A DNA stretch of 64,000 nt, taken from positions 186,001-250,000 of the forward strand of contig JAQMWT010000057.1 of the NCBI GenBank assembly GCA_029834535.1. The letters are read 5' to 3'. The notes beneath the pieces were generated by a model. That model was not told the DNA's origin. It was given only the letters and a program-made list of their open reading frames with translations, and ran no database searches. Position 1 is the stretch's first letter. Each line of letters opens with the position of its first letter. The DNA comes from Chrysophaeum taylorii. Its lineage: Eukaryota > Sar > Pelagophyceae > Pelagomonadales > Pelagomonadaceae. Shown here one piece after another: positions 52,588 through 64,000 of this stretch. The translations under genes were made by a program, and so were the position numbers.

Positions 52588-53436
52588 TTAGTCATTAGAG
52601 GTATTGTTTGTAGTGATAGCACCACTGAGGACGACCAGGGGTGCCATGACAGAAGATAGATAGGACATAGCTGCGTCCGGTGTTAAGGTATTCAAGTCTG
52701 CTGCTGGAATAACATGATCCTGTGCATCAGACATAGAGGTATATAAGTTATTAGCTGTATCGTCGATTAGAGTTTGCTGTGCCTCTTCATAAGTATTTGG
52801 AGGAAACTGTCCAATAGACGAAATGAGCGATCGCGAGATTATGTGAACAAAGACAGCAAGGGTAGGCATCATAGTATCTTGGTGCATTTGGTAGCTTGAT
52901 AGTATATTATCTAAGAGCGCAACATGCTTGATGTTTTCGGTTACTTGGGCATTTAAAGTGGCATAAGCTTCTTGTAGCTGAGTTATATTCCTCAAGGCAT
53001 CAGATAGTTGTAGGTCTCGTTCCATCAATTGCTGATCACTTTTAGTGATACGTGAGGATAGAGATTGAACTTCTTCTTTTAGCTGGCGCAAAGATTCAAC
53101 TACATTATCGTTAAGTTCGTCTGGCGTGGGTTCAACTGGTGCGGTTTCGACTGGTGCAGGTTTTTTATCCTCAGACAATTTAGTGTCTGAAAATGCGCCT
53201 ATTATGGCAGAGGGATAGCCAACCTGGACTAGTACGTTTTTGAAGGCGGTCTGATGCTCGGGTGAAAGTTGAAGAAAGCAATCCAACATTGGCGGCGGTA
53301 ACATCTCGTGAGAAGTGTCATTAAACTGGTAAAAGACATCATTAACGAAACTTTCAGTGAGCACATTAAGTAGCTCATCAGGATTAGTCACGACACAGAC
53401 TTTATCTTCAACAGACTGTAGTAATGACCAAGCCAC
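52588..53436 (-). CDS. Antisense coiled-coil protein of the retroelement region
   Basis: This 282-residue minus-strand frame has the AT-richer codon use of the retroelement rather than of host genes. The middle (about residues 110-170) is a clear coiled coil (ESLRQLKEEVQSLSSRI; LQEAYATLNAQVTENIKHV). The last part is helical with hydrophobic patches (PTLAVFVHIISRSLISSIGQ). The N-terminal third contains LLNVLTESFVNDVFYQF. It is not recognised. It lies 30 bp from the next antisense frame, and the pair seems to be a small unit. Confidence 0.5.
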   Translation of the reverse strand: MAWSLLQSVEDKVCVVTNPDELLNVLTESFVNDVFYQFNDTSHEMLPPPMLDCFLQLSPEHQTAFKNVLVQVGYPSAIIGAFSDTKLSEDKKPAPVETAPVEPTPDELNDNVVESLRQLKEEVQSLSSRITKSDQQLMERDLQLSDALRNITQLQEAYATLNAQVTENIKHVALLDNILSSYQMHQDTMMPTLAVFVHIISRSLISSIGQFPPNTYEEAQQTLIDDTANNLYTSMSDAQDHVIPAADLNTLTPDAAMSYLSSVMAPLVVLSGAITTNNTSND

Positions 53437-53466
53437 TACAAGAATCTCGAGATTGACATTCGAGAT

Positions 53467-54168
53467 TTAAGGCAGCTGTAGCAAGAGGGGAGCGTTGTCG
53501 TTAGGATTCACAATAACTTTAGAAGCAGTCAGATTACGGGTTGCCATACATTTCAGGAGCGCCTCTTTAAGCAGCTTGTTGATTGCAATGGACTTCCCAA
53601 AGCGGAGAATGATAGCTCTCATGTGTGCAGCTGGATCATTATAGCAAGAAAGATGAAACGACTGACGACTGTTCCTAATTAACGCTGTCCCGTGCTGCGA
53701 CAGATTACACATGACACAGATCAAAATGAAAAATGGACGCGGTACGTCAAAACAATGCGAAGCATGTTGATCTGACGCAAGGTGGTCCTCGATGATTTTG
53801 ATGATTTTGTCTGTTTTAATTTCATCTTCGGTGCAAATGGCGAGTACAAGGGGCGTGCCCGGCGCATCGGTTTTATTGAAACATTTCGTACACATTATGT
53901 GTACTTTGACAACGCCTTTAATGGGTGGGTATCGATGCAATCGAATACCCTCGTTTGCCGGTATGTTAAGAGCATTACGTATGCGCTTCGCCTTTAGACA
54001 CAATAGAGAGCTCGGGAAGTGGAGGTTGTCAACGCAGTTATTTTTTTGTGCCTCAGTAAGCAATTGTTGGATGGATTGATGCCAACATTGAGGATTCTTA
54101 GGTGACGGTAGCAAAAAATTCGGTGGCTGGGTGCTAAGCGAGAGAACGTTACGAGACATCATCGCCAT
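53467..54168 (-). CDS. Antisense Cys/His-bearing protein of the retroelement region
   Basis: This 233-residue minus-strand frame starts upstream of the coiled-coil frame on the same strand. It has a possible zinc-binding arrangement (VHIMCTKCFNKTD, then HLASDQHASHC) followed by FILICVMCNLSQHGTALIRN and a basic helical end (RFGKSIAINKLLKEALLKCM). A DNA- or RNA-binding role is inferred from the Cys/His pairs only. No family is recognised. Codon use and position tie it to the retroelement, but it could equally belong to a separate insertion. Confidence 0.5.
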   Translation of the reverse strand: MAMMSRNVLSLSTQPPNFLLPSPKNPQCWHQSIQQLLTEAQKNNCVDNLHFPSSLLCLKAKRIRNALNIPANEGIRLHRYPPIKGVVKVHIMCTKCFNKTDAPGTPLVLAICTEDEIKTDKIIKIIEDHLASDQHASHCFDVPRPFFILICVMCNLSQHGTALIRNSRQSFHLSCYNDPAAHMRAIILRFGKSIAINKLLKEALLKCMATRNLTASKVIVNPNDNAPLLLQLP

Positions 54169-55082
54169 AGCATCGAATTTACAATGCTTTAGAAGAAAGT
54201 ATTCGGTGTTTGCAACATTAGATTTAGAATGGTGCTGTGTTGTTTGTGCAGAGAAATCTGCTGCCTCTTACCCTTATCCGTCCGTTGAGAACGTGATCTC
54301 TTCCTTACCCTTTCTTCTTCCTTTCTACACAATCAAATAGTCCTCTGATTTGTGCTTACGCTCATCATCATGGTCTAGCGCGTCCCGAGGTATGTAGCAC
54401 TATACACTTTACCTTTCTCGTGTAGTTCTAGATGCCGCCTGTCGTGTTCTGAGGATATAGGGAACATACCTTTTCATTCCCCGAATTAAATACTTCCAGA
54501 CGTTCATGATGAGACGGGATGGTTTCCCAGGTGACTTACCACTGCTTGCTAAATGCTCTGCAGGTTATGGGCCAAGGCGGGTCCCTGAGAAACCATGTGT
54601 TAAAACGTGCACGTAACCTATGGGTATTGGGCCGTTACCGCGCCGGTTCAGCCTCGACACGTAAACACACTTGTGAATACAACACCATTACCATTGGGCT
54701 GTATATAATACCTTTTGCACACGTGATCGTGTAACCTTGTGTGCACCTGCTCATAGTATCGTATTGTCATGTCAATGTTGATGTGTGTGTAATTGGCTAA
54801 CCTGTACTCTTTCACACATGCTATGGAATATTTTGGGTACGTCCACTCGTACATTCCATGGCAACGCACTTAATAAGCTCCTTGAGAGCACCAAAACTAA
54901 CCAGCTGCCTGAGTGACTACGCTTAGCGACACTACTCTGGACTCACAGCTTGCACAGTCGTCAAATAGACATCTTTCTATCGAAAACGATGAGTGTACAT
55001 AGACACCGATAGACAGACCCCCTTAGAATGTCTATACAGTGTCAACTGCGTGACTGAACCCAGAGGCTCCCCGTCAACTGGT
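54169..55082. other. Leader region between antisense frames and Gag
   Basis: About 900 bp without a supported gene. This is where a bidirectional promoter serving the antisense frames and the element would lie. A primer-binding site was not identified. Confidence 0.35.
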
Positions 55083-56573
55083 ATGGCAGAACACGCAGCA
55101 CGAGCCGCACCCAAGGCGATCACAGGTGCGGATATATTGAAGCTCGAAGCTCCTGTAGTTGAGTTTCTTAACGATGGAAATCGATTTCAGCTTCAGACTC
55201 GCAAGGTATCCTTGCAAATCAAGCTCATTAAGCAATTGTTACGGTCCAGTCATGCCAATGCCTTTCTCGAGTACGACTCGTACGAAGCATATACGCGGTC
55301 ATGCAAGGACTGCGAGATCCTCCGGAATCAAATTCTCGATCGCGTTTTCCTGGAATGGAAGACCGATAGGGCTACTGATCTCCGTTTAGCTGTTGATGAA
55401 TTGCCCCCTGAGTATCAGGAATGGCATTTCACCAACGAAGCTTTCCCCCACTTACCTGATGCAGGAGTAGATCAGCTAGCTACTGTCTGTTACGACTATG
55501 AAGTCAAGGAATTACGTCCTGAAGTCAATGCCCGTTTCTTAGAAGAGGAACGAATCTTAAATCGCGCGCACCCGAAGGCATTAGCTTTCGACACCCGTGT
55601 TCGTGCCCCTGTTACTATGTTTTCGTTAACTGCTGCTGACTGGCACACTTATCAGAACACGTATGCTACATTCTTGCATACTTACTTCAATCTTGAAAGT
55701 GTTGGAAAACCAGCACTTGCGGCCTGGCCCGCCATCAATGAGGTATATAACAAAAGTTATTTACCCAACAAGGCTCGAGCCATTATGCTCATCGCCTTTA
55801 GTCACTGCGAGTCTGTTACGACTACTGATGTGTCCTATTTGAAACAGCAATTTAACTCTGTTGTTTATAATCCTAACTGGTATGTCCATGTATTTATCGA
55901 AGCTGTCCTAGCATTTAGGCAAATCTCTTACCAACTTAACCAGGAAGAGACTGACCTTCAATTCGACTTTGGCACTCTTTGTAGAAAAATCTATGAAGAG
56001 ATACATCGGCATTATGCCGATAATACCAGCAACAATCGTTACGATCGTGGTTGGGTAGATTGGTGTTATATGTATGAAACCCGATCTTCATCTCGGCCTG
56101 TGCCAGAAGCTGAACGATTGTGTCACCCTACCAACCCTAGCTACATTTTAGAATACGCATTAGACCTATACAGTGTAGTATCAAATGGGTCGAACAAAAG
56201 ACGCTTAGAACGCCCCGTTTCTTGGCAACCCTATGTCGAAGGTTTATCATCTCAACCAAAGCCAAAGTTACTACTTACAAACACGCTGGATTTAGCAGAC
56301 AAAAGTCTGACTCAAACTGCTAGCACACTCGCCTTCATCACTTCGTCTCAACCTGGTACATCTTCCACGTTTAATGCTAGACGCTTGCGTAACTCTAATG
56401 ATGCTCGCCAGCCTTTCTCTCGCAGCGATTTATCGTATTATCGTTCTGGTGATTCTTACGTCACCAAGAAAACTGCTGGACAGTCTCATGACCGTCTAAT
56501 TTACCCCCGCACTTTTGAGAGGTCCTCTAGGTCGAACATGAAATTATTAGATATCGAACAAATCACACCTTAA
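55083..56573 (+). CDS. Gag-position protein of the retroelement
   Basis: The ATG at 55083 (MAEHAARAAPK) gives about 496 residues. The frame is open slightly upstream. It lies where Gag is expected in a copia element and is mostly helical with aromatic residues, as in capsid-like domains (YATFLHTYFNLESVGKPALA; LIAFSHCESVTTTDVSYLKQ). No zinc knuckle is visible. Assignment is by position. Confidence 0.6.
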   Translation: MAEHAARAAPKAITGADILKLEAPVVEFLNDGNRFQLQTRKVSLQIKLIKQLLRSSHANAFLEYDSYEAYTRSCKDCEILRNQILDRVFLEWKTDRATDLRLAVDELPPEYQEWHFTNEAFPHLPDAGVDQLATVCYDYEVKELRPEVNARFLEEERILNRAHPKALAFDTRVRAPVTMFSLTAADWHTYQNTYATFLHTYFNLESVGKPALAAWPAINEVYNKSYLPNKARAIMLIAFSHCESVTTTDVSYLKQQFNSVVYNPNWYVHVFIEAVLAFRQISYQLNQEETDLQFDFGTLCRKIYEEIHRHYADNTSNNRYDRGWVDWCYMYETRSSSRPVPEAERLCHPTNPSYILEYALDLYSVVSNGSNKRRLERPVSWQPYVEGLSSQPKPKLLLTNTLDLADKSLTQTASTLAFITSSQPGTSSTFNARRLRNSNDARQPFSRSDLSYYRSGDSYVTKKTAGQSHDRLIYPRTFERSSRSNMKLLDIEQITP

Positions 56574-56611: not shown

Positions 56612-57859
56612 GTGACAGATAATGATACCACGGCTCAGTTACAACAGAATATCAACGAGTTATTTGAGACTCTATTACAAACAGCTGACATTCTGTCAAC
56701 GACATATACTGAGGACAACAGCAATTTACTTCGTCTAAACGAACAACTCATGTTTGCAGAAGACATCATTTATGATATAGACGTTCATCTATCCTCGACC
56801 GAAAAGTCGTTAAACTACGTGGAGCCACAACACCATACTGTTGTTACTGCTCCCAACCCAAAGGCAACTCCTCCTACTACAAACACACAGGGTAAACCTT
56901 CCAATACTGTGCCTAACCTCTTTACCGCTTCCGCCATCTCGGCTTTACCACCAGCGTTATTGTCCTCGCTATCTTCACAGGTCCAATCTGCCCTCAACCT
57001 ACCATCACAAGCCGAAACCAAAAGGGATGCCGATCATACTTCGCTATCGTCATTTGATGAAAAGCACGGCATGGCTGATGAGGCTGACGAACCATCACCA
57101 CCTGTTCAACCGATTATTATTCCAACGAATCTACTATTGCTGGAGAACTTCTTCACAGCCAGCCTCTCCACCACTTGCACACATTCAGAAAACGCCTTCC
57201 TCACCAACTACATGAAGGTAAACAGTGTCCATCCACATTGCTCTTTCCTATATTTTGACTCTTGTGCTACCATCTCATTGATGTCCACCTACGATTTCGC
57301 TATACCCAATCATATAATACCATTGGACTCTAAGTACGCCCCGATTGTTATTCAGGCGGCAACAGGACAACAACGGGTATCACACATGATGTTAACACGC
57401 AACATCGTTGTTCCCCTACCAGATCACCCACAAATTGGCTACGTTAAGATCGACTTCGCTTTATATCTTCAACCAGTGCATGACCGACATCTCGCTATCC
57501 TGAGCATGCTCGAATGGAACCAGACCAATCTTACCACCGTGTTCAACGATCGAGCTGAGCCAAAGCTCAGCGCTGTCACGAGTCGCATAGACAAAGATGT
57601 ACGTATCCCCATACACTACATAGCAGCTAATTTACCTGCTCTCCCTTGTCTCACTTACAACATCGCTCGTGACAAGCAACTCGAACTTCGTTCCCTCGCA
57701 TTTCCCCTCAAGCGATACCATGAAAACAGGGATCTACTGGCATACTACAACTACCTACTCCAAAGAGTTTTACCAGAACGCCCGTGGATTCGCCCTTTGG
57801 TTCTCAATCTTCGGAAACAGAACAAGTTTGTTCAGCAAAAAACACAGCCACTAACTTGA
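56612..57859 (+). CDS. Aspartic-protease-like part of the retroelement
   Basis: A 415-residue frame. After an N-terminal low-complexity half, the segment SFLYFDSCATISLMSTYDFA resembles the D-S/T-G-A active-site strand of retropepsins, followed by IVIQAATGQQ and LAILSMLEWNQ, which resemble the flap and the ILG-type strand. It lies between the Gag-position and methyltransferase-like parts. Confidence 0.6.
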   Translation: MTDNDTTAQLQQNINELFETLLQTADILSTTYTEDNSNLLRLNEQLMFAEDIIYDIDVHLSSTEKSLNYVEPQHHTVVTAPNPKATPPTTNTQGKPSNTVPNLFTASAISALPPALLSSLSSQVQSALNLPSQAETKRDADHTSLSSFDEKHGMADEADEPSPPVQPIIIPTNLLLLENFFTASLSTTCTHSENAFLTNYMKVNSVHPHCSFLYFDSCATISLMSTYDFAIPNHIIPLDSKYAPIVIQAATGQQRVSHMMLTRNIVVPLPDHPQIGYVKIDFALYLQPVHDRHLAILSMLEWNQTNLTTVFNDRAEPKLSAVTSRIDKDVRIPIHYIAANLPALPCLTYNIARDKQLELRSLAFPLKRYHENRDLLAYYNYLLQRVLPERPWIRPLVLNLRKQNKFVQQKTQPLT

Positions 57860-57874
57860 CTACTTTCACGCCCA

Positions 57875-59920
57875 GTGTTTCTCTCAAAAGAGTCCAATCT
57901 CCGCAAACCTTCTGTCTTGTTACTTTGTTCTGCTTTATCAACTCCGGCGTTCCTGTCTCAAGCCACTAATGACTTAGGCTTAAATATCAATGTAAAAGTT
58001 GTTGTTGAGTCTGATGATACGCTTGTTCGTATGTTACGCCACCGTTTCCCTACTGTATTATTATTTGAATCTCTCCCCGACTTTATTAACCATCTTCACC
58101 TAATCTCACCAGAGGAAAGGCGCACATTCTATTGTGATATAATTGAGATCACTCCTCCCTGCACGAACAGGAATTTACTAAAACAGCATAAGACAGAAGA
58201 CTTACACAGCCTGCTGGACGATTCTCTTTTCGACAGCATGTTGTCTGTCATCAAGTTACTCCAGCCCTTGGTACTACTGGCTGAGATGGCGCCTCCACAT
58301 AAGTACTGTCATCAAGACCACATCACAGTGGCCAATCTTATCCATGCAGCACTTGATTACTGTGTCGATGTTGTTGATAGGTTCCCGACCTACCTCTGTG
58401 GCGACTACCAATCTAGAGAAAGATGGATATGCATCGCACGCAGGTATTCTACTGGACCAATTAAAGTATTGTCGTGGCCTATCCTCCATCCCCGCCCCTT
58501 CCTAAAGATCGTGGATGATCTACAAGCTATTCCCAAGCGCCTTTGGCTACCTAAACACGTATCCAAAGACTGGATCCGTGTGTTCCCCGATCCTCCATAT
58601 ATTCCCGTTCCTAAAACGTTTGCACCTTACTCTCGCACAGGTTCTGCTCAGCTTACTATGGCTGACCTTGAATCCCTCAATATGTTACTGCTTCGCCTTC
58701 ACTCACAACAGGCTCACGAGCAACGTACTCACTCTGTTCAATCCGAGTGTACCTATCATCAGCTGTGCTTTAAACGCTCCTCTATGGAGCCGCTACTCAA
58801 TGCAACCTACCCTATACATGTCAGGGCTTTTACAATCCTCTATAACTTGTTTGCCAGCTTACACACTAACTCACCCACTCCTGTGTCTTATTACATAACC
58901 GTTTTCGAAACTAACCAACCGTCACACAGGTTACTACTTACAACTTCATCAACATCATACAACTCCCACTTCTTAACTGGTGGCCACCACTCTGACGGCA
59001 ACCTCACCATAGAGAACGCCACCACCAAATATCATGCTTCTATTGACGCGTTTGGAAGCACGTATACGTTCACTGCTTCCGACATTCCCCGCGACCACGA
59101 CAGGCCCATATATTCGGAGCCGTTTATGGGTTACTTGTGGATAGTCCAAGCCCTTCCCCAAGCTGGCTCCGCTGCCACCTATGGCACTACTAGGCTATGG
59201 CACCGCCATACAAAAGCTCTTGTCCAGATGCTCTCTTGTGATGCCTGGCTGCCTTACCTACAAGGCCACCGCCAACTCGACTACAAGGACTATCATTTTG
59301 CTCTGGAAGACCACCACTTATCTCATAGTCGCTATATAGGGTACCTTCGTGGAAGTGACCGCAAACTCGGCTCTAAAATCCACTCCATGCATGCTCCGTT
59401 GCCCACCGTCCGAGGGTACGCCAACATCATTTTACTCGACCCCCGCAACGGGAAATTACGCTACCCCACTCGACCGGAGTTGATTCGTGCTAACAACCAC
59501 ACCAAACAACAGGAATCCTTCCTCTTGTCTCTACGCCATGACCTTTGCTGTGACATGCTCAGCAATGCTCTGCCTGCCGGTACGTACAGTACTCTGTACA
59601 AGCACCTCTCGCTCCTCGTTGCCGATATTAAATCCCTTATGTTGGACCCTACCTTCCAACATACTGCTGCCGTGATGAAGAAATCCTATGTATCCAATTT
59701 CATGACCGTTGATCAAGCTTCCACCACGTGCAGCACAGATACCTTGTCTTTGGGACAAGCTCTTATGATGTCTATTTCCAGCAACTGCTTGACCGAAATG
59801 TCGTTAAACTATATATCTTCGTCCTACGAAGATACTCTCGTTAGTCGTGATGATGAGGATGCGCCTCCAAGTGACCCTGCTGCGCACCAGGATGACGACG
59901 CACCGCCTTCCCCTGCCTGA
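57875..59920 (+). CDS. C5-cytosine DNA methyltransferase-like segment inside the retroelement
   Basis: A 681-codon frame whose first ~190 residues follow the order of C5-cytosine methyltransferases. VKVVVESDDTLVRMLRHRFP matches the acidic ribose-binding strand and the arginine-phenylalanine-proline that follows. DIIEITPPCTN (about 88-98) matches the Pro-Cys catalytic loop (motif IV). LLQPLVLLAEMAPP matches the region of motif VI. LCGDYQSRERWICIARR (about 175-190) matches motif VIII (Q-x-R-x-R). The remaining ~490 residues contain aromatic-rich stretches (WHRHTKALVQMLSCDAWLPY) and a C-terminal Asp/Pro-rich tail; their role is unknown. The segment lies between protease and integrase, so it was probably carried in the element's polyprotein. 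Activity cannot be judged. Confidence 0.65.
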   Translation: MFLSKESNLRKPSVLLLCSALSTPAFLSQATNDLGLNINVKVVVESDDTLVRMLRHRFPTVLLFESLPDFINHLHLISPEERRTFYCDIIEITPPCTNRNLLKQHKTEDLHSLLDDSLFDSMLSVIKLLQPLVLLAEMAPPHKYCHQDHITVANLIHAALDYCVDVVDRFPTYLCGDYQSRERWICIARRYSTGPIKVLSWPILHPRPFLKIVDDLQAIPKRLWLPKHVSKDWIRVFPDPPYIPVPKTFAPYSRTGSAQLTMADLESLNMLLLRLHSQQAHEQRTHSVQSECTYHQLCFKRSSMEPLLNATYPIHVRAFTILYNLFASLHTNSPTPVSYYITVFETNQPSHRLLLTTSSTSYNSHFLTGGHHSDGNLTIENATTKYHASIDAFGSTYTFTASDIPRDHDRPIYSEPFMGYLWIVQALPQAGSAATYGTTRLWHRHTKALVQMLSCDAWLPYLQGHRQLDYKDYHFALEDHHLSHSRYIGYLRGSDRKLGSKIHSMHAPLPTVRGYANIILLDPRNGKLRYPTRPELIRANNHTKQQESFLLSLRHDLCCDMLSNALPAGTYSTLYKHLSLLVADIKSLMLDPTFQHTAAVMKKSYVSNFMTVDQASTTCSTDTLSLGQALMMSISSNCLTEMSLNYISSSYEDTLVSRDDEDAPPSDPAAHQDDDAPPSPA

Positions 59921-59939: not shown

Positions 59940-60950
59940 ATGTTCGGCGCAAACGGCATATTCCCGCTCATCCCATTCCTCGTAAGTCTCTCGCACACGT
60001 ATCCACCGAATATCTCAATGCCAAAGAACGTGCCAATCGCTTCCACCGGGTGCATCACTGCCCCGACAACGTCGCTGCCAAGGCCCCCAACGTACTTGCT
60101 CGCCCTGGATTCTCTGCTCCTGACATACCATATCGCGAGTTATGCACCGACTGCATCGCACACAACAAGCGCCACCCGCATAAGCATTTCAATGCGACCA
60201 AGCCTTCTTTTGAGCAAACTCACAAAGCCGGCGAAGTCTGGGCGTGCGACGGCGGCTATGTGACCATCCCATCCGAATGGGGAGGCTTCACACATATCAT
60301 CGTCTTCAAGGAACTCATTTCAATTTCTTTTGATGTACTTTACACGCACCACCAACGCCACGGAGTTCACTCAGGCTCTGGATTTTGTGTATGACTTCTG
60401 TCGTACACAACTTAACGTGCACATGCGCACCCTCTACTCCGATGCCTTCAAGCCCTACTTTAGCCAGCACATTACCTCCCCGTACCGCGTCGATAAAGGC
60501 ATTCAACTCATCGCCTTCCCGCCGTGCATGCACCACTTCAACTTTGAAGTTGAGTCCGCCATCGGTTTCATCGCCTCCGCCTCCTCAACTCGCCTTCGTT
60601 CTCTTTTTAATGCTCACTATCGTGGCGCCAAGATCGTGGAACCAGCCATCATGTTTCCGTGGGCGGTGATACACACCGCTCAAAGCTACAACCTTCTCCT
60701 GAACGCCACGCTCGAGCACATTCATCATGCTATCCTGAGTCCGCAACAGCTACTCTACAACCAACTCAACACTCCCCAACATGACATGCTCAAGATTTTA
60801 AACGCTGAATGTTACCTTTTATTGGAGCCCCATGAACACCATAAGTTGGAACAGTGCCGCCGCAAATATTTATATCTCTGTTGCGCCAACGCGCAAAACC
60901 CGCTCGTCTCCCCACGCGTCGACCATCTCGCTGACGTCGTCCTCAACCCT
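59940..60950 (+). mobile_element. Integrase part of the copia-like element
   Basis: The span carries a GAG-pre-integrase-like zinc region (ANRFHRVHHCPDN, then LCTDCIAHNKRH), the first catalytic aspartate block (GEVWACDGGYVTIPSEWGGF) and the later D/E part (MRTLYSDAFKPYF; FPPCMHHFNFEVESAIGFI). This is the order of copia integrases. Confidence 0.75.
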
Positions 60951-62267
60951 GAAAACGGACAAATTCGTGTTTCGTCCAAGCTGCAATTCCTCTACATGCT
61001 TCAGCATCCTACTCCTGACCCTGAACTTGCTCCTCCGCCTCACGCTCCTCCCGCGCCTTTCTCGCTCACACCCCACGCCGCTATCCAATACCATGTCATT
61101 CAGAGGGGGACACGGACTCCTCATCCTCAGAGGGGGCACTCCCCACCTCCTTCAGCTCCTTCGTCGTCCCCTGCTCCTGCTTCTTCTCCCTCTTCTGACG
61201 CTCTCGCCGACGATTCTGGCTCTATGTCACCACCGCCCTTGCTTCCTTCTTGCAAAGACCTTTTTGCACAAGATGACCTCATTCTTGTCCCAGGTTCCAA
61301 ACAGCCCAACACCCGCAAGGCCACTTCTATGAAAACTATCCAAGCCCGGCTACAAGCGTCTAGTATTGGTGCTTACAAAGCCGCTGGTGGCAAACTCGCC
61401 GATTTCCGCTGGGATCTTCGCCACCACATTCTTACGTTCAAGTCTCCCGCCCTCTCCGCCCTTCATCTCAATGGTGGTATCCTCTGGTCTGCTATCTGCT
61501 CAGAGGGGGAACATGCGTTGTTAGCTCGTCTTCTTCTCCTGTTGCGCACTGACTTACTTGCCCGCTACCCGCGCGTCGATGGTTACTTCGCCCACGCCAA
61601 GTGCGCATCCAGCATCCCAGCTGCAACCTTTCTAACTGCTGATGGTTCACCTGCGTGCCCCATTCCTCAGCCCCTTTTATCTGCGTTCACTGAACACGCT
61701 GCTGCCTTTGGCACTTCTTCCTTACAATATGCACTTACGTACCTGGCGCCGACCAGCTTTATTGATCACAACTCCTCCGAGTTTGGCGCTGCTTCTGCAT
61801 CTCTGGCTGACTTGGAGGAATACCTTCTGGTCTCTACAGAGTTTATCACCCAGGTCTTACACACCGACCCTACTATCCATATTCAACTGGAATCTGCTTC
61901 TTCTACTCCTACTGACGCTGTTTCCGCTTATCCCGAAGTTGCGCACACTGCCTCGACCGCAACGTCGCTAAACTATAATTCACCAGCCATTGTTGGTCCT
62001 GACGAATATAAGGTCCAAGAAGCTGACGTTTCCATTGACGAATATAAACTCAAGTGCCTCCACGGTTTGTCGCCTGAAAACAGGCACGCCTACCTCAAGG
62101 CCATCGCCAAGGAACTCCACGACATTATCCGCTTTGGCTGCTTCAAACTTTCCTTACCCGACGGTGTCTCTCGTCCTATTGACAGCAAGATGGTGCTGAA
62201 GATTAAAACAGACTCTGCAGGAAAATACGTCAAGCACAAGGCTCGCCTCCTCGCACGCTCTGGGTGA
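60330..62267 (+). CDS. Integrase end, linker and start of reverse transcriptase
   Basis: A 645-codon frame that begins in the integrase, passes through a Pro/Ser-rich linker (about 61040-61240) and ends in the N-terminal part of a copia reverse transcriptase: AYLKAIAKELHDIIRFGCFK, SRPIDSKMVLKIKTD and KHKARLLARSG correspond to the W-A...E...I-x-x-K-W-V...K-A-R-L-V-A block. The catalytic palm of the transcriptase and RNase H are not recognised in the window. Confidence 0.7.
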   Translation: MMYFTRTTNATEFTQALDFVYDFCRTQLNVHMRTLYSDAFKPYFSQHITSPYRVDKGIQLIAFPPCMHHFNFEVESAIGFIASASSTRLRSLFNAHYRGAKIVEPAIMFPWAVIHTAQSYNLLLNATLEHIHHAILSPQQLLYNQLNTPQHDMLKILNAECYLLLEPHEHHKLEQCRRKYLYLCCANAQNPLVSPRVDHLADVVLNPENGQIRVSSKLQFLYMLQHPTPDPELAPPPHAPPAPFSLTPHAAIQYHVIQRGTRTPHPQRGHSPPPSAPSSSPAPASSPSSDALADDSGSMSPPPLLPSCKDLFAQDDLILVPGSKQPNTRKATSMKTIQARLQASSIGAYKAAGGKLADFRWDLRHHILTFKSPALSALHLNGGILWSAICSEGEHALLARLLLLLRTDLLARYPRVDGYFAHAKCASSIPAATFLTADGSPACPIPQPLLSAFTEHAAAFGTSSLQYALTYLAPTSFIDHNSSEFGAASASLADLEEYLLVSTEFITQVLHTDPTIHIQLESASSTPTDAVSAYPEVAHTASTATSLNYNSPAIVGPDEYKVQEADVSIDEYKLKCLHGLSPENRHAYLKAIAKELHDIIRFGCFKLSLPDGVSRPIDSKMVLKIKTDSAGKYVKHKARLLARSG

Positions 62268-63211: not shown

Positions 63212-64000
63212 TCAGTGGCAGTGTCCTCCTCCTCCTCCTCCTCCTCCTCCTTTTGTTGGCGTATGGTGAGACGACTCGTGGTTTTCGATGAGCGCGTCGG
63301 CGTCGATGGCGTAGGTGGCGAGGGCCTTCTGGCGCCACGCGCCCGTCGCCTCCTCGAGCTCGATCCAGGCATTGGTGGGGAGGCTCTTGAAGGTCTGGGG
63401 CTCGAGGTGGTCGCGGTGTGGCCAATAAACATGGATCTCTGCCAAATCGCCGGAACCGAGGCCGACGTGGTGGATTTTGACGGGGTTCGCGCCGAAGGAC
63501 GCGGTGTTTCCGACGACCGTGTAGACGGTCTGGTTATGCGTCGTCTCGACGACGAGCCTGGCGCCCTGGCCGAGCCTGTTTGCCTTGGAGCCGACGAGCG
63601 ACACCTTGATCCAGTTATTTTCGGAGTCCCCGGGGTTGAGGTAGAGGGCGTCGGCGAAGAGATCCCCCGTCATAGCCCCGCCCATCGAGGCCGCGATGTC
63701 GAGGTGGCCGTCGTTCTGGACGTCTAAGAAGCAGATGCCGTGGCCCTTTTGAAGATGACCCAAACCAGCCGAAAACGTGATGTCCTCGAAGCTGCCGTTG
63801 CCCAAATTGCGAAGCATGAGGTTGGGCATCAGGCCGCGGAGGTCGGGCCAACCCGTGCCCAAGTAGAAGTCTACGAACCCGTCGTTGTCGACGTCGCCAA
63901 AGTTCATCGCCATGACCCCCGACTGCAGGAGGCGGCGCGGGGTCGAAAGGGAGACGTCCTGGAAGGTGTCGTTGCCGGAATTCAACAAGACCCGAGTCAA
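63212..64000 (-). CDS. FG-GAP/ASPIC-UnbV repeat protein, 3' part (runs off the window)
   Basis: The last 262 codons of a minus-strand gene whose start lies beyond the window. It contains two calcium-binding FG-GAP/VCBS-type blades, MNFGDVDNDGFVDFYLGTGW and CFLDVQNDGHLDIAASMGG (D-x-D-x-D-G-x-x-D loops). An ASPIC/UnbV-like domain follows (NNWIKVSLVGSKANRLGQGA; SFGANPVKIHHVGLGSGDLA; IHVYWPHRD). Such proteins are usually secreted or membrane-anchored beta-propellers involved in adhesion or carbohydrate binding. The C-terminal tail is a poly-Gly run encoded by a GGA repeat (63224-63251) and is probably not conserved. Confidence 0.85.
   Translation of the reverse strand: MTRVLLNSGNDTFQDVSLSTPRRLLQSGVMAMNFGDVDNDGFVDFYLGTGWPDLRGLMPNLMLRNLGNGSFEDITFSAGLGHLQKGHGICFLDVQNDGHLDIAASMGGAMTGDLFADALYLNPGDSENNWIKVSLVGSKANRLGQGARLVVETTHNQTVYTVVGNTASFGANPVKIHHVGLGSGDLAEIHVYWPHRDHLEPQTFKSLPTNAWIELEEATGAWRQKALATYAIDADALIENHESSHHTPTKGGGGGGGGGHCH
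63224..63251. repeat. (CTC/GAG)n microsatellite at the 3' end of the ASPIC gene
   Basis: About nine CTC units. Read on the minus strand as GGA they encode a poly-glycine stretch just before the stop codon. Confidence 0.85.

Follow-up and report, generated by a model that had tools for sequence, protein, structure and literature searches.

Copia retrotransposons with a putative C5-cytosine methyltransferase between protease and integrase in the genome of Chrysophaeum taylorii

Introduction

Cytosine methylation is chiefly known as a means by which hosts defend themselves against mobile elements. A locus in the pelagophyte Chrysophaeum taylorii raises the question whether a retrotransposon can keep such an enzyme as its own, and what it would use it for. 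The locus lies in a stretch of 64,000 nucleotides (contig JAQMWT010000057.1 of assembly GCA_029834535.1, positions 186,001 to 250,000), which we call the window and in whose coordinates plain positions are given. Here, a long terminal repeat (LTR) retrotransposon contains, between a protease-like part and an integrase, a 681-codon frame at 57875-59920 that an earlier note, made from the letters of the window, had read as a C5-cytosine-methyltransferase-like domain carried by a copia-like element. The frame is present, and so are the motifs quoted for it: CDIIEITPPCTN, LLAEMAPPHK, CGDYQSRERWICIARR, and VVESDD...RHRF. From the comparisons reported below we hold it very probable, short of certainty, that a member of the methyltransferase family resides inside a copia element.

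Results and Discussion

Identity of the methyltransferase-like frame

The C5-cytosine-methyltransferase-like frame, the first part of pol, occupies 57860..59920 on the plus strand, as do all features described here unless stated otherwise. Its true start, 57860, lies directly after an in-frame TGA (57857-57859) that closes the gag-protease frame. Profile and motif comparisons carry the assignment, together with the 72 matches scored within the genome itself, many of them full length, which form family A with the window copy. Here and below, own-genome counts refer to the best candidates scored; copies may be missed, and some rows are pieces of one copy.

The motifs were followed through 17 copies, window included, and through two relatives from outside the genome, P0002 (found at 41% identity in the transcriptome collection MMETSP; 44% identical to the window part) and P0003 (from ENA; 37%). 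The motif I region VLLLCSALSTPAFL is located at 57914..57955; its LLCSALST lies just before motif II and had been overlooked in the earlier note. The second Ala of the window copy is Gly in the 16 other copies, such that a motif I with a single Gly is found in 16 of 17 (CSGL in 14, WSGL in L005, YSGL in L011, against CSAL in the window). Motif II, VKVVVESD, was placed at 57992..58015 by motif alignment and profile comparison. The motif IV region DIIEITPPCT (58136..58165), which in the window reads CDIIEITPPCTN, contains the putative catalytic Cys; its PPC is preserved in all 17 copies and in P0002, and P0003 has APCQG. The motif VI region LVLLAEMAPPH (58268..58300) retains its Glu in 17 of 17 copies, and a second copia family, B, has ENV at this place. 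For the motif VIII region CGDYQSRERWICIARR (58397..58444), motif alignment, copies and profile comparison agree: within QxRxR, Q179, R181 and R183 are invariant among the 17 copies, and E182 is replaced once (E182G in L011). P0002 and P0003 likewise keep the motif IV Cys, the motif VI Glu and the motif VIII Arg.

Profile alignment bears out the C5-methyltransferase-like identity beyond shuffled controls. Residues 12-190 of family A were aligned to a reference set of seven C5-methyltransferases, five from phages and two from the host, and scored 54.1 across motifs I-VIII (P 8e-7); 60 column shuffles reached at most 23.2. Residues 526-578 aligned to motifs IX-X of M.SPR with a score of 27.7 (P 0.003; 60 shuffles at most 18.8); this motif IX-X-like region, GKLRYPTRPELIRANNH ... 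LSNALPAGTYSTLYKHL, maps to 59450..59608 and to M.SPR residues 375-429. Since motifs I-VIII and, weakly, IX-X can be aligned, the frame up to about residue 580 reads as one enzyme. The part after motif VIII is thus probably the rest of the enzyme and not a linker. Between the matched motifs VIII and IX sits a putative large target-recognition region (58445..59449), on this reading of about 330 residues. Finally, the profiles of families A and B match each other (P 1.3e-6 over 210 columns), with motifs IV, VI and VIII in register.

With respect to Pfam family PF00145, which the earlier note had brought up, the expectation holds for several relatives and fails for the window protein itself. P0003 (23.0 bits) and family B (38.6 and 36.7 bits) exceed the cut-off of 22, P0002 (20.2 bits) remains below it, and PF00145 is the sole Pfam family matched by P0002 or P0003 at E<=10. 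Structure prediction was similarly divided. In the first of two AlphaFold models, the order of strands and helices fits a class I methyltransferase, and the top Foldseek match of this low-confidence model is 8yf3, an enzyme of the C5-methyltransferase fold (E 1.2e-4).

Several observations weigh against the identification. The window protein and copy L002 have no Pfam match, PF00145 included, at E<=10, and neither a piece of the sister family A2 (L030) nor copy L028 matches PF00145 at E<=1. The window protein has no match among PDB sequences better than E 0.49, and a search of the NCBIfam profiles gave nothing useful. Motif I has one Gly only, and motif VI of family A is AEM instead of ENV. 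For motifs IX-X, the profile probability of the match is just 10%; when the C-terminal region of family B was compared with the same motifs, it scored 16.5, which is not beyond its shuffles (up to 18.4). Both structure predictions, made from three-row alignments, are poor (predicted local distance difference test, pLDDT, 48.6 and 38.3), and oxidoreductases and other Rossmann enzymes score about as well as 8yf3.

Selection on the element

We computed the ratio of nonsynonymous to synonymous substitution rates (dN/dS) for each part of the element, leaving out of a given stretch those copies whose best match covered <80% of it. The median dN/dS is 0.16 for methyltransferase residues 1-267 (15 copies, 105 pairs), and none of these 15 copies contains a stop within this part. 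The rest of the frame, 58676-59917, which includes much of the putative target-recognition region, has a median of 0.26 (16 copies). Elsewhere in the element, the medians are 0.13 for gag (seven copies, three with stops), 0.16 for the protease (12 copies, four with a stop), and 0.12-0.14 for the integrase (16 and 14 copies). A stretch that was read in the wrong frame served as an unplanned control and gave a dN/dS of 1.56, with 15-21 stops per copy. The methyltransferase core is under purifying selection, as strong as that on protease and integrase.

The motifs might also resemble those of a methyltransferase by chance, in what would be a mere linker of the polyprotein; that the window protein lacks a direct Pfam match, and a PDB sequence match better than E 0.49, speaks for this. 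The dN/dS values, the PF00145 matches of the relatives, the match between the profiles of A and B, the kept motifs and the shuffle-controlled alignment together speak so clearly for a methyltransferase that chance resemblance is, for practical purposes, refuted.

Structure of the carrier element

In the window, the element spans from 54247 to a break at 62249. Combined with other copies, its order is LTR, gag-like, protease-like, methyltransferase-like, integrase, reverse transcriptase, RNase H, further frames, and LTR, where the label RNase H is a by-eye reading of the copia-like end of the frame. Ten 10-kb copies were compared; six of them (L009, L012, L014, L015, L017, and L018) have the left edge in common, and eight align up to 62249.

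The 5' LTR of about 169 bp (54247..54415) is defined by this common edge and by a stretch repeated at both ends of the L017/L019 copy. It is followed by a gag-like frame of 526 residues (54993..56573) and a protease-like frame (56612..57859) with FDSCATISLMS (57254), which ends in the TGA. Neither frame in the window has a Pfam match at E<=10; hence, they are named by their position, the protease also by FDSCAT. Downstream of the methyltransferase frame, which stops at 59918-59920 in the window, the integrase (60029..61025) comprises a zinc-binding HHCC part (~60044-60154) and, by eye, a DDE core. The window integrase is broken across two frames. In L014, one frame leads from the methyltransferase into the integrase region (SH3 match) with no stop. 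The stretch 61962..62249 contains a linker and the first residues of a copia reverse transcriptase. Here, just inside the reverse transcriptase, homology with the other copies ends; these continue with RVT_2, RNase H, extra frames and the 3' LTR. The window copy is thus a fragment that has, of the two LTRs, the 5' one only.

By its domain order, the window element is an LTR retrotransposon of the copia superfamily, because the reverse transcriptase is of the RVT_2 type and the integrase is placed before it. Both are seen in a single frame of L018, with rve at 17.5 and SH3 at 20.9 bits, neither of which reaches its cut-off, followed by RVT_2 (143.4 bits). In this respect the earlier note was right.

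The L017/L019 copy spans 11,326 bp, and its LTRs of 168 and 167 bp are identical in 162 of 168 columns. A purine run, GAGGGGG, stands just before its 3' LTR. No target-site duplication was seen in this copy, the single one examined with both ends, which is a point against the overall explanation favoured below. Three extra frames of 235, 169 and 192 residues lie between RNase H and the 3' LTR (L017 end/L019 start, reverse complement), in an env-like position.

Some candidate features were discarded. Repeats in L010 had been considered as LTRs, and mapping showed them to be the 5' end of a second element. The tandem match 54246-54557 was rejected as LTR after the L017/L019 comparison had given about 168 bp. 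The tRNA-like GGTTATGGGCC, considered as a primer site, lies about 150 bp past the LTR and was dropped because it does not adjoin it.

The TGA junction

The methyltransferase frame is in phase with gag-protease, and a single TGA (57857..57859 in the window) separates them in 15 of the 16 copies with a readable junction. The junction of L011 is unreadable and stands outside the 16. CTA directly follows the TGA in eight of the 15 copies. The sole readable copy that lacks the TGA, L006, does so by a 3-nt deletion. A lone TGA at the same place and in the same frame suggests a programmed readthrough stop; the argument is one of position only, which must be held against it. The relative P0002 comes from a transcriptome collection, and therefore a related protein is transcribed somewhere.

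Carriers and non-carriers in the genome

The segment between protease-like part and integrase, whose absence from other elements had been set beforehand as one of two refuting tests, recurs in other elements of the same genome. Three contig pairs, C10/C297, C25/C521 and C6/C268, show matching scores and near-matching coordinates in several searches, which suggests uncollapsed duplicates that slightly inflate the copy counts.

Besides family A, the sister family A2 (L030:52-2371, L031) yields 131 scored matches; its core is identical to that of A at 137 of 266 residues. Family B (L026 = C120:34500-43500; L022-L025) is a second copia family, with the methyltransferase upstream of integrase and RVT_2. 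Its methyltransferase is the clearer one, with TLPCQ and, in all four family B proteins aligned, ENV; it also matches NCBIfam dcm with E 8.7e-9, below the cut-off of that model. PF00145 has 124 scored matches in the genome, 56 of which were sorted to family B by profile range (four loci read), and the family B reverse transcriptase has 104.

The order of methyltransferase and reverse transcriptase recurs. In at least 20 of 65 rows of family A, at least 23 of 131 rows of A2, and at least 25 of 56 rows of B, the same strand bears a reverse transcriptase of the expected type within 0-6 kb downstream; in one, three and three rows, respectively, it lies upstream or on the other strand. C33 and C237, which were picked by 5' leader and reverse transcriptase alone, carry the methyltransferase as well.

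A third type of carrier is the gypsy family C (L027:2559-3440; L042-L049), where the methyltransferase-like domain MLFSGAGGSTLGL, with ASPPC, precedes a gypsy-type RVT_1 (51.6 bits). It has 133 scored matches, two of which lie in frames of more than 3000 residues. PF00145 reaches 22.6-23.9 bits, and the profile score is 32.6, with 60 shuffles of at most 21.3. The median dN/dS is 0.06, pooled 0.14 (18 pairs from nine rows; L027 and L042 represent one copy). PPC is kept in this family, and the motif VI Glu was not seen.

These data bear on the question of whether the domains still work as enzymes. A Rossmann fold that has lost catalysis might be kept because it binds nucleic acid or has a structural role in pol, as the deviating motifs I and VI, the Gly to Ala change in motif I of the window copy, and the gypsy domain, under purifying selection with no visible motif VI Glu, would allow. 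Against this stand all 17 copies as well as P0002 and P0003, which have kept the Cys of motif IV, the Glu of motif VI and the Arg of motif VIII; we consider the loss of catalysis rather improbable. The copia enzyme is predicted to be catalytic still, which we regard as likely.

Copia elements that do not carry the domain are found in the same genome. They were obtained from the gag_pre-integrs profile (151 scored matches, three loci read): L041 covers gag to RNase H in a single frame of 1708 residues, and L038 extends from gag to integrase. L038 shares gag, protease and integrase with the window element, L041 in addition an RVT_2-type reverse transcriptase; unlike the window element, both have no methyltransferase between protease and integrase. 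C483 and C344, tried as further copia elements free of the domain on the strength of RVT_2 matches unlike A, were rejected, as both carry it, in C344 seen from motif VIII on.

Outside the own genome, P0002 and P0003 were the only relatives found among the candidates scored (7683 and 8000 in the first two protein searches). A search with residues 1-640 of the L009 frame for long proteins yielded none at E<=1e-3 among 8000 candidates scored, and therefore no polyprotein from another genome was found. Relatives of either copia family were not found in viral contigs, a collection from which records near this genome may be absent.

Origin

In the tree, the methyltransferases of the copia families A, A2 and B make up a single clade together with P0002 and P0003 (support 96/97; 100/98 after removal of the gypsy sequences and of the long host DNMT), and gypsy family C falls elsewhere. 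The trees included a host Dnmt2, on a long branch, and no Dnmt3 sequences. Because the sampled copia methyltransferases form one clade, the simplest reading is that the domain was probably gained once in a copia ancestor, and a likely independent gain by gypsy would account for family C. In the approximately unbiased (AU) test, a single clade of copia and gypsy was not rejected (p 0.23), and therefore two independent captures are not proven; joining family B to gypsy C gave p 0.066.

The reverse transcriptases, compared with one ordinary copia family, fit a common descent of the carriers in part. Identity is 62-65% between A and A2, 36% (198 bits) between A and B, 27% (122 bits) between A and ordinary copia, and 26-28% between B and ordinary copia. 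A2 and B share 33-34% (147 bits), which is alike to the 29-34% over shorter stretches (100-109 bits) between A2 and ordinary copia. The carriers are thus set apart from ordinary copia only for A, a result that does not favour one uptake.

Two host-like genes were noted in the course of this search, with PF00145 scores of 67 and 61 bits. L020:1498-2580 is a host-like Dnmt2 gene adjoining what by eye is a light-harvesting-like plastid protein, a neighbour that points to an algal host, and L021:1006-3537 is a second host-like DNMT.

Possible function

What could the element gain from such an enzyme? At the TGA, ribosomes would mostly stop and make Gag-protease, and a readthrough fraction would yield a Gag-protease-methyltransferase-integrase-reverse transcriptase polyprotein. 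In this way the methyltransferase would enter the particle along with the replication enzymes, and there the cytosines of the new double-stranded complementary DNA (cDNA) could be methylated before or at integration. A copy methylated in this way may resemble methylated host DNA, or may be shielded from enzymes that act on unmodified cytosine. A similar course, methylation of their own cDNA in the particle, was proposed for DIRS elements in the part of de Mendoza et al. (PMC5890265) that concerns them. We favour, with moderate confidence, a particle-borne enzyme that methylates the cDNA of its own element as the best overall explanation; that the enzyme acts on the DNA of the element we rate at about even.

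Two results on CpG speak against it; they also bear, as an indirect test with a negative outcome, on the suggestion in the earlier note that the element may methylate its own copies to evade host silencing. First, CpG depletion in family A is slight (observed/expected 0.92-0.99, five copies). A2 has 0.81-0.91 (two copies), B 1.0 and gypsy C 1.18; ordinary copia has 1.09-1.10, and the part of the window that belongs to the host 1.27. Second, among 16 rows of family A, C/T and G/A differences are not raised at CpG (0.176 and 0.148, versus 0.177-0.232 and 0.138-0.192 in other contexts). A mild CpG deficit and no CpG excess of changes give no indication that CpG is heavily methylated. The absent footprint would fit another sequence context, little deamination, or an RNA substrate.

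The last of these leads to a different enzyme, one of the DNMT2-like kind, which would methylate the packaged RNA of the element or its primer tRNA and so affect RNA stability or reverse transcription. Apart from the missing CpG footprint, it can point to the DNMT2 structures among the Foldseek matches of the weak model and, in the passages of PMC5890265 on LINE-encoded enzymes, to the suggestion of RNA as a possible target and the report of no DNA methylation by them in yeast. We think it unlikely, given that the host Dnmt2 stands outside the copia methyltransferase clade in the trees, though on a long branch, and that the putative target-recognition region is large.

A further possibility turns the benefit around: the domain might serve the host, or limit the element, by methylating related copies in trans and so holding down copy number or rival elements. 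Many methyltransferase-bearing copies do exist alongside ordinary copia, and retrotransposition slowed by the domain was raised as an idea in the pertinent passage of PMC5890265. However, purifying selection at the level of protease and integrase is more easily explained by a direct benefit to replication, and the changes in family A are not raised at CpG; we consider limitation in trans improbable, the more so of these two alternatives.

Returning to methylation of the own cDNA, the full picture for this genome of 70.8 Mb would be as follows: C5-methyltransferases reside on two LTR backbones; the copia clade, of at least three families, stems from one uptake and the gypsy family from a separate one; purifying selection acts on each; and in the window family readthrough supplies the enzyme, which is packaged and methylates cDNA before integration. 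As a conjunction of all these parts, we put it forward tentatively, at less than an even chance.

Neighbouring features

Upstream of the element, adjoining its 5' edge in opposite orientation, the minus strand of 52588-54168 contains two low-GC frames of 282 and 233 residues. One of them is weakly like an extra 3' frame of the element (42% over 45 residues, E 0.005), and the two are perhaps the 3' end of another element. On the other side, about 1 kb past the truncated end, a fragment of a host gene lies at 63212-63997 on the minus strand; it has FG-GAP repeats (43 bits) and matches UnbV_ASPIC weakly.

Rearranged or repetitive surroundings were also seen at other copies. At L016:2106-2775, a tandem array with a period of ~54 bp stands beside a family A copy, outside its homology to the window. 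Element 5' ends are joined head to tail at C635:5457-6504, and at C53:43237-44159 an element 5' end adjoins an inverted piece of leader.

Comparison with known systems

The precedents named in the earlier note are real, and none of them is a copia element. The sections of de Mendoza et al. 2018 (PMC5890265) drawn on here describe SymbioLINE-Dnmt and SymbioDIRS-Dnmt3 in Symbiodinium and KnitGypsy-Dnmt3 in Klebsormidium nitens, and give the Copia elements of Symbiodinium as free of DNMT. These elements and ours have in common a C5-methyltransferase in the coding region of a retroelement, many copies, preserved key residues, and purifying selection; in the DIRS and Gypsy elements the domain is part of Pol, as in the window element. 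In contrast to those sections, the window element is a copia, with the domain between protease and integrase and behind an in-frame TGA. The DIRS and Gypsy enzymes are there assigned to the Dnmt3 type, and the enzyme of the window element is known here from its sequence alone.

Two other papers touch the subject in the passages considered. One sentence in PMC12344493 names Copia as a carrier of DNMT3 and cites de Mendoza 2018; the surrounding passage gives no architecture, and since its source has Gypsy for the streptophyte case, the word may be an error or may report something new. PMC6338049 reports Gypsy and DIRS elements encoding DAM/DCM in stramenopiles, algae and others. Methyltransferase domains in algal retroelements are thus common to that report and to ours, the carriers there being Gypsy and DIRS elements instead of copia; that paper treats adenine and cytosine enzymes together and cites PMC5890265 for the latter.

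Apart from the sentence in PMC12344493, the literature searched, which left most subscription journals and bioRxiv outside and was in part seen as excerpts, contains no description of a copia element with a C5-methyltransferase between protease and integrase, nor of a genome in which copia and gypsy carriers occur together. Retroelements that conserve a C5-methyltransferase of their own point to methylation as something that can work for the element too. With carriers on copia and gypsy backbones beside copia elements that lack the domain, a compact genome such as this one offers a natural comparison and makes the question testable: do new insertions of the carrier families arrive methylated, and in which sequence context? 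C5-methyltransferases of retroelements are already known from LINE, DIRS and Gypsy; judged by the order of domains, the copia backbone and the placement between protease and integrase appear to be the new part.

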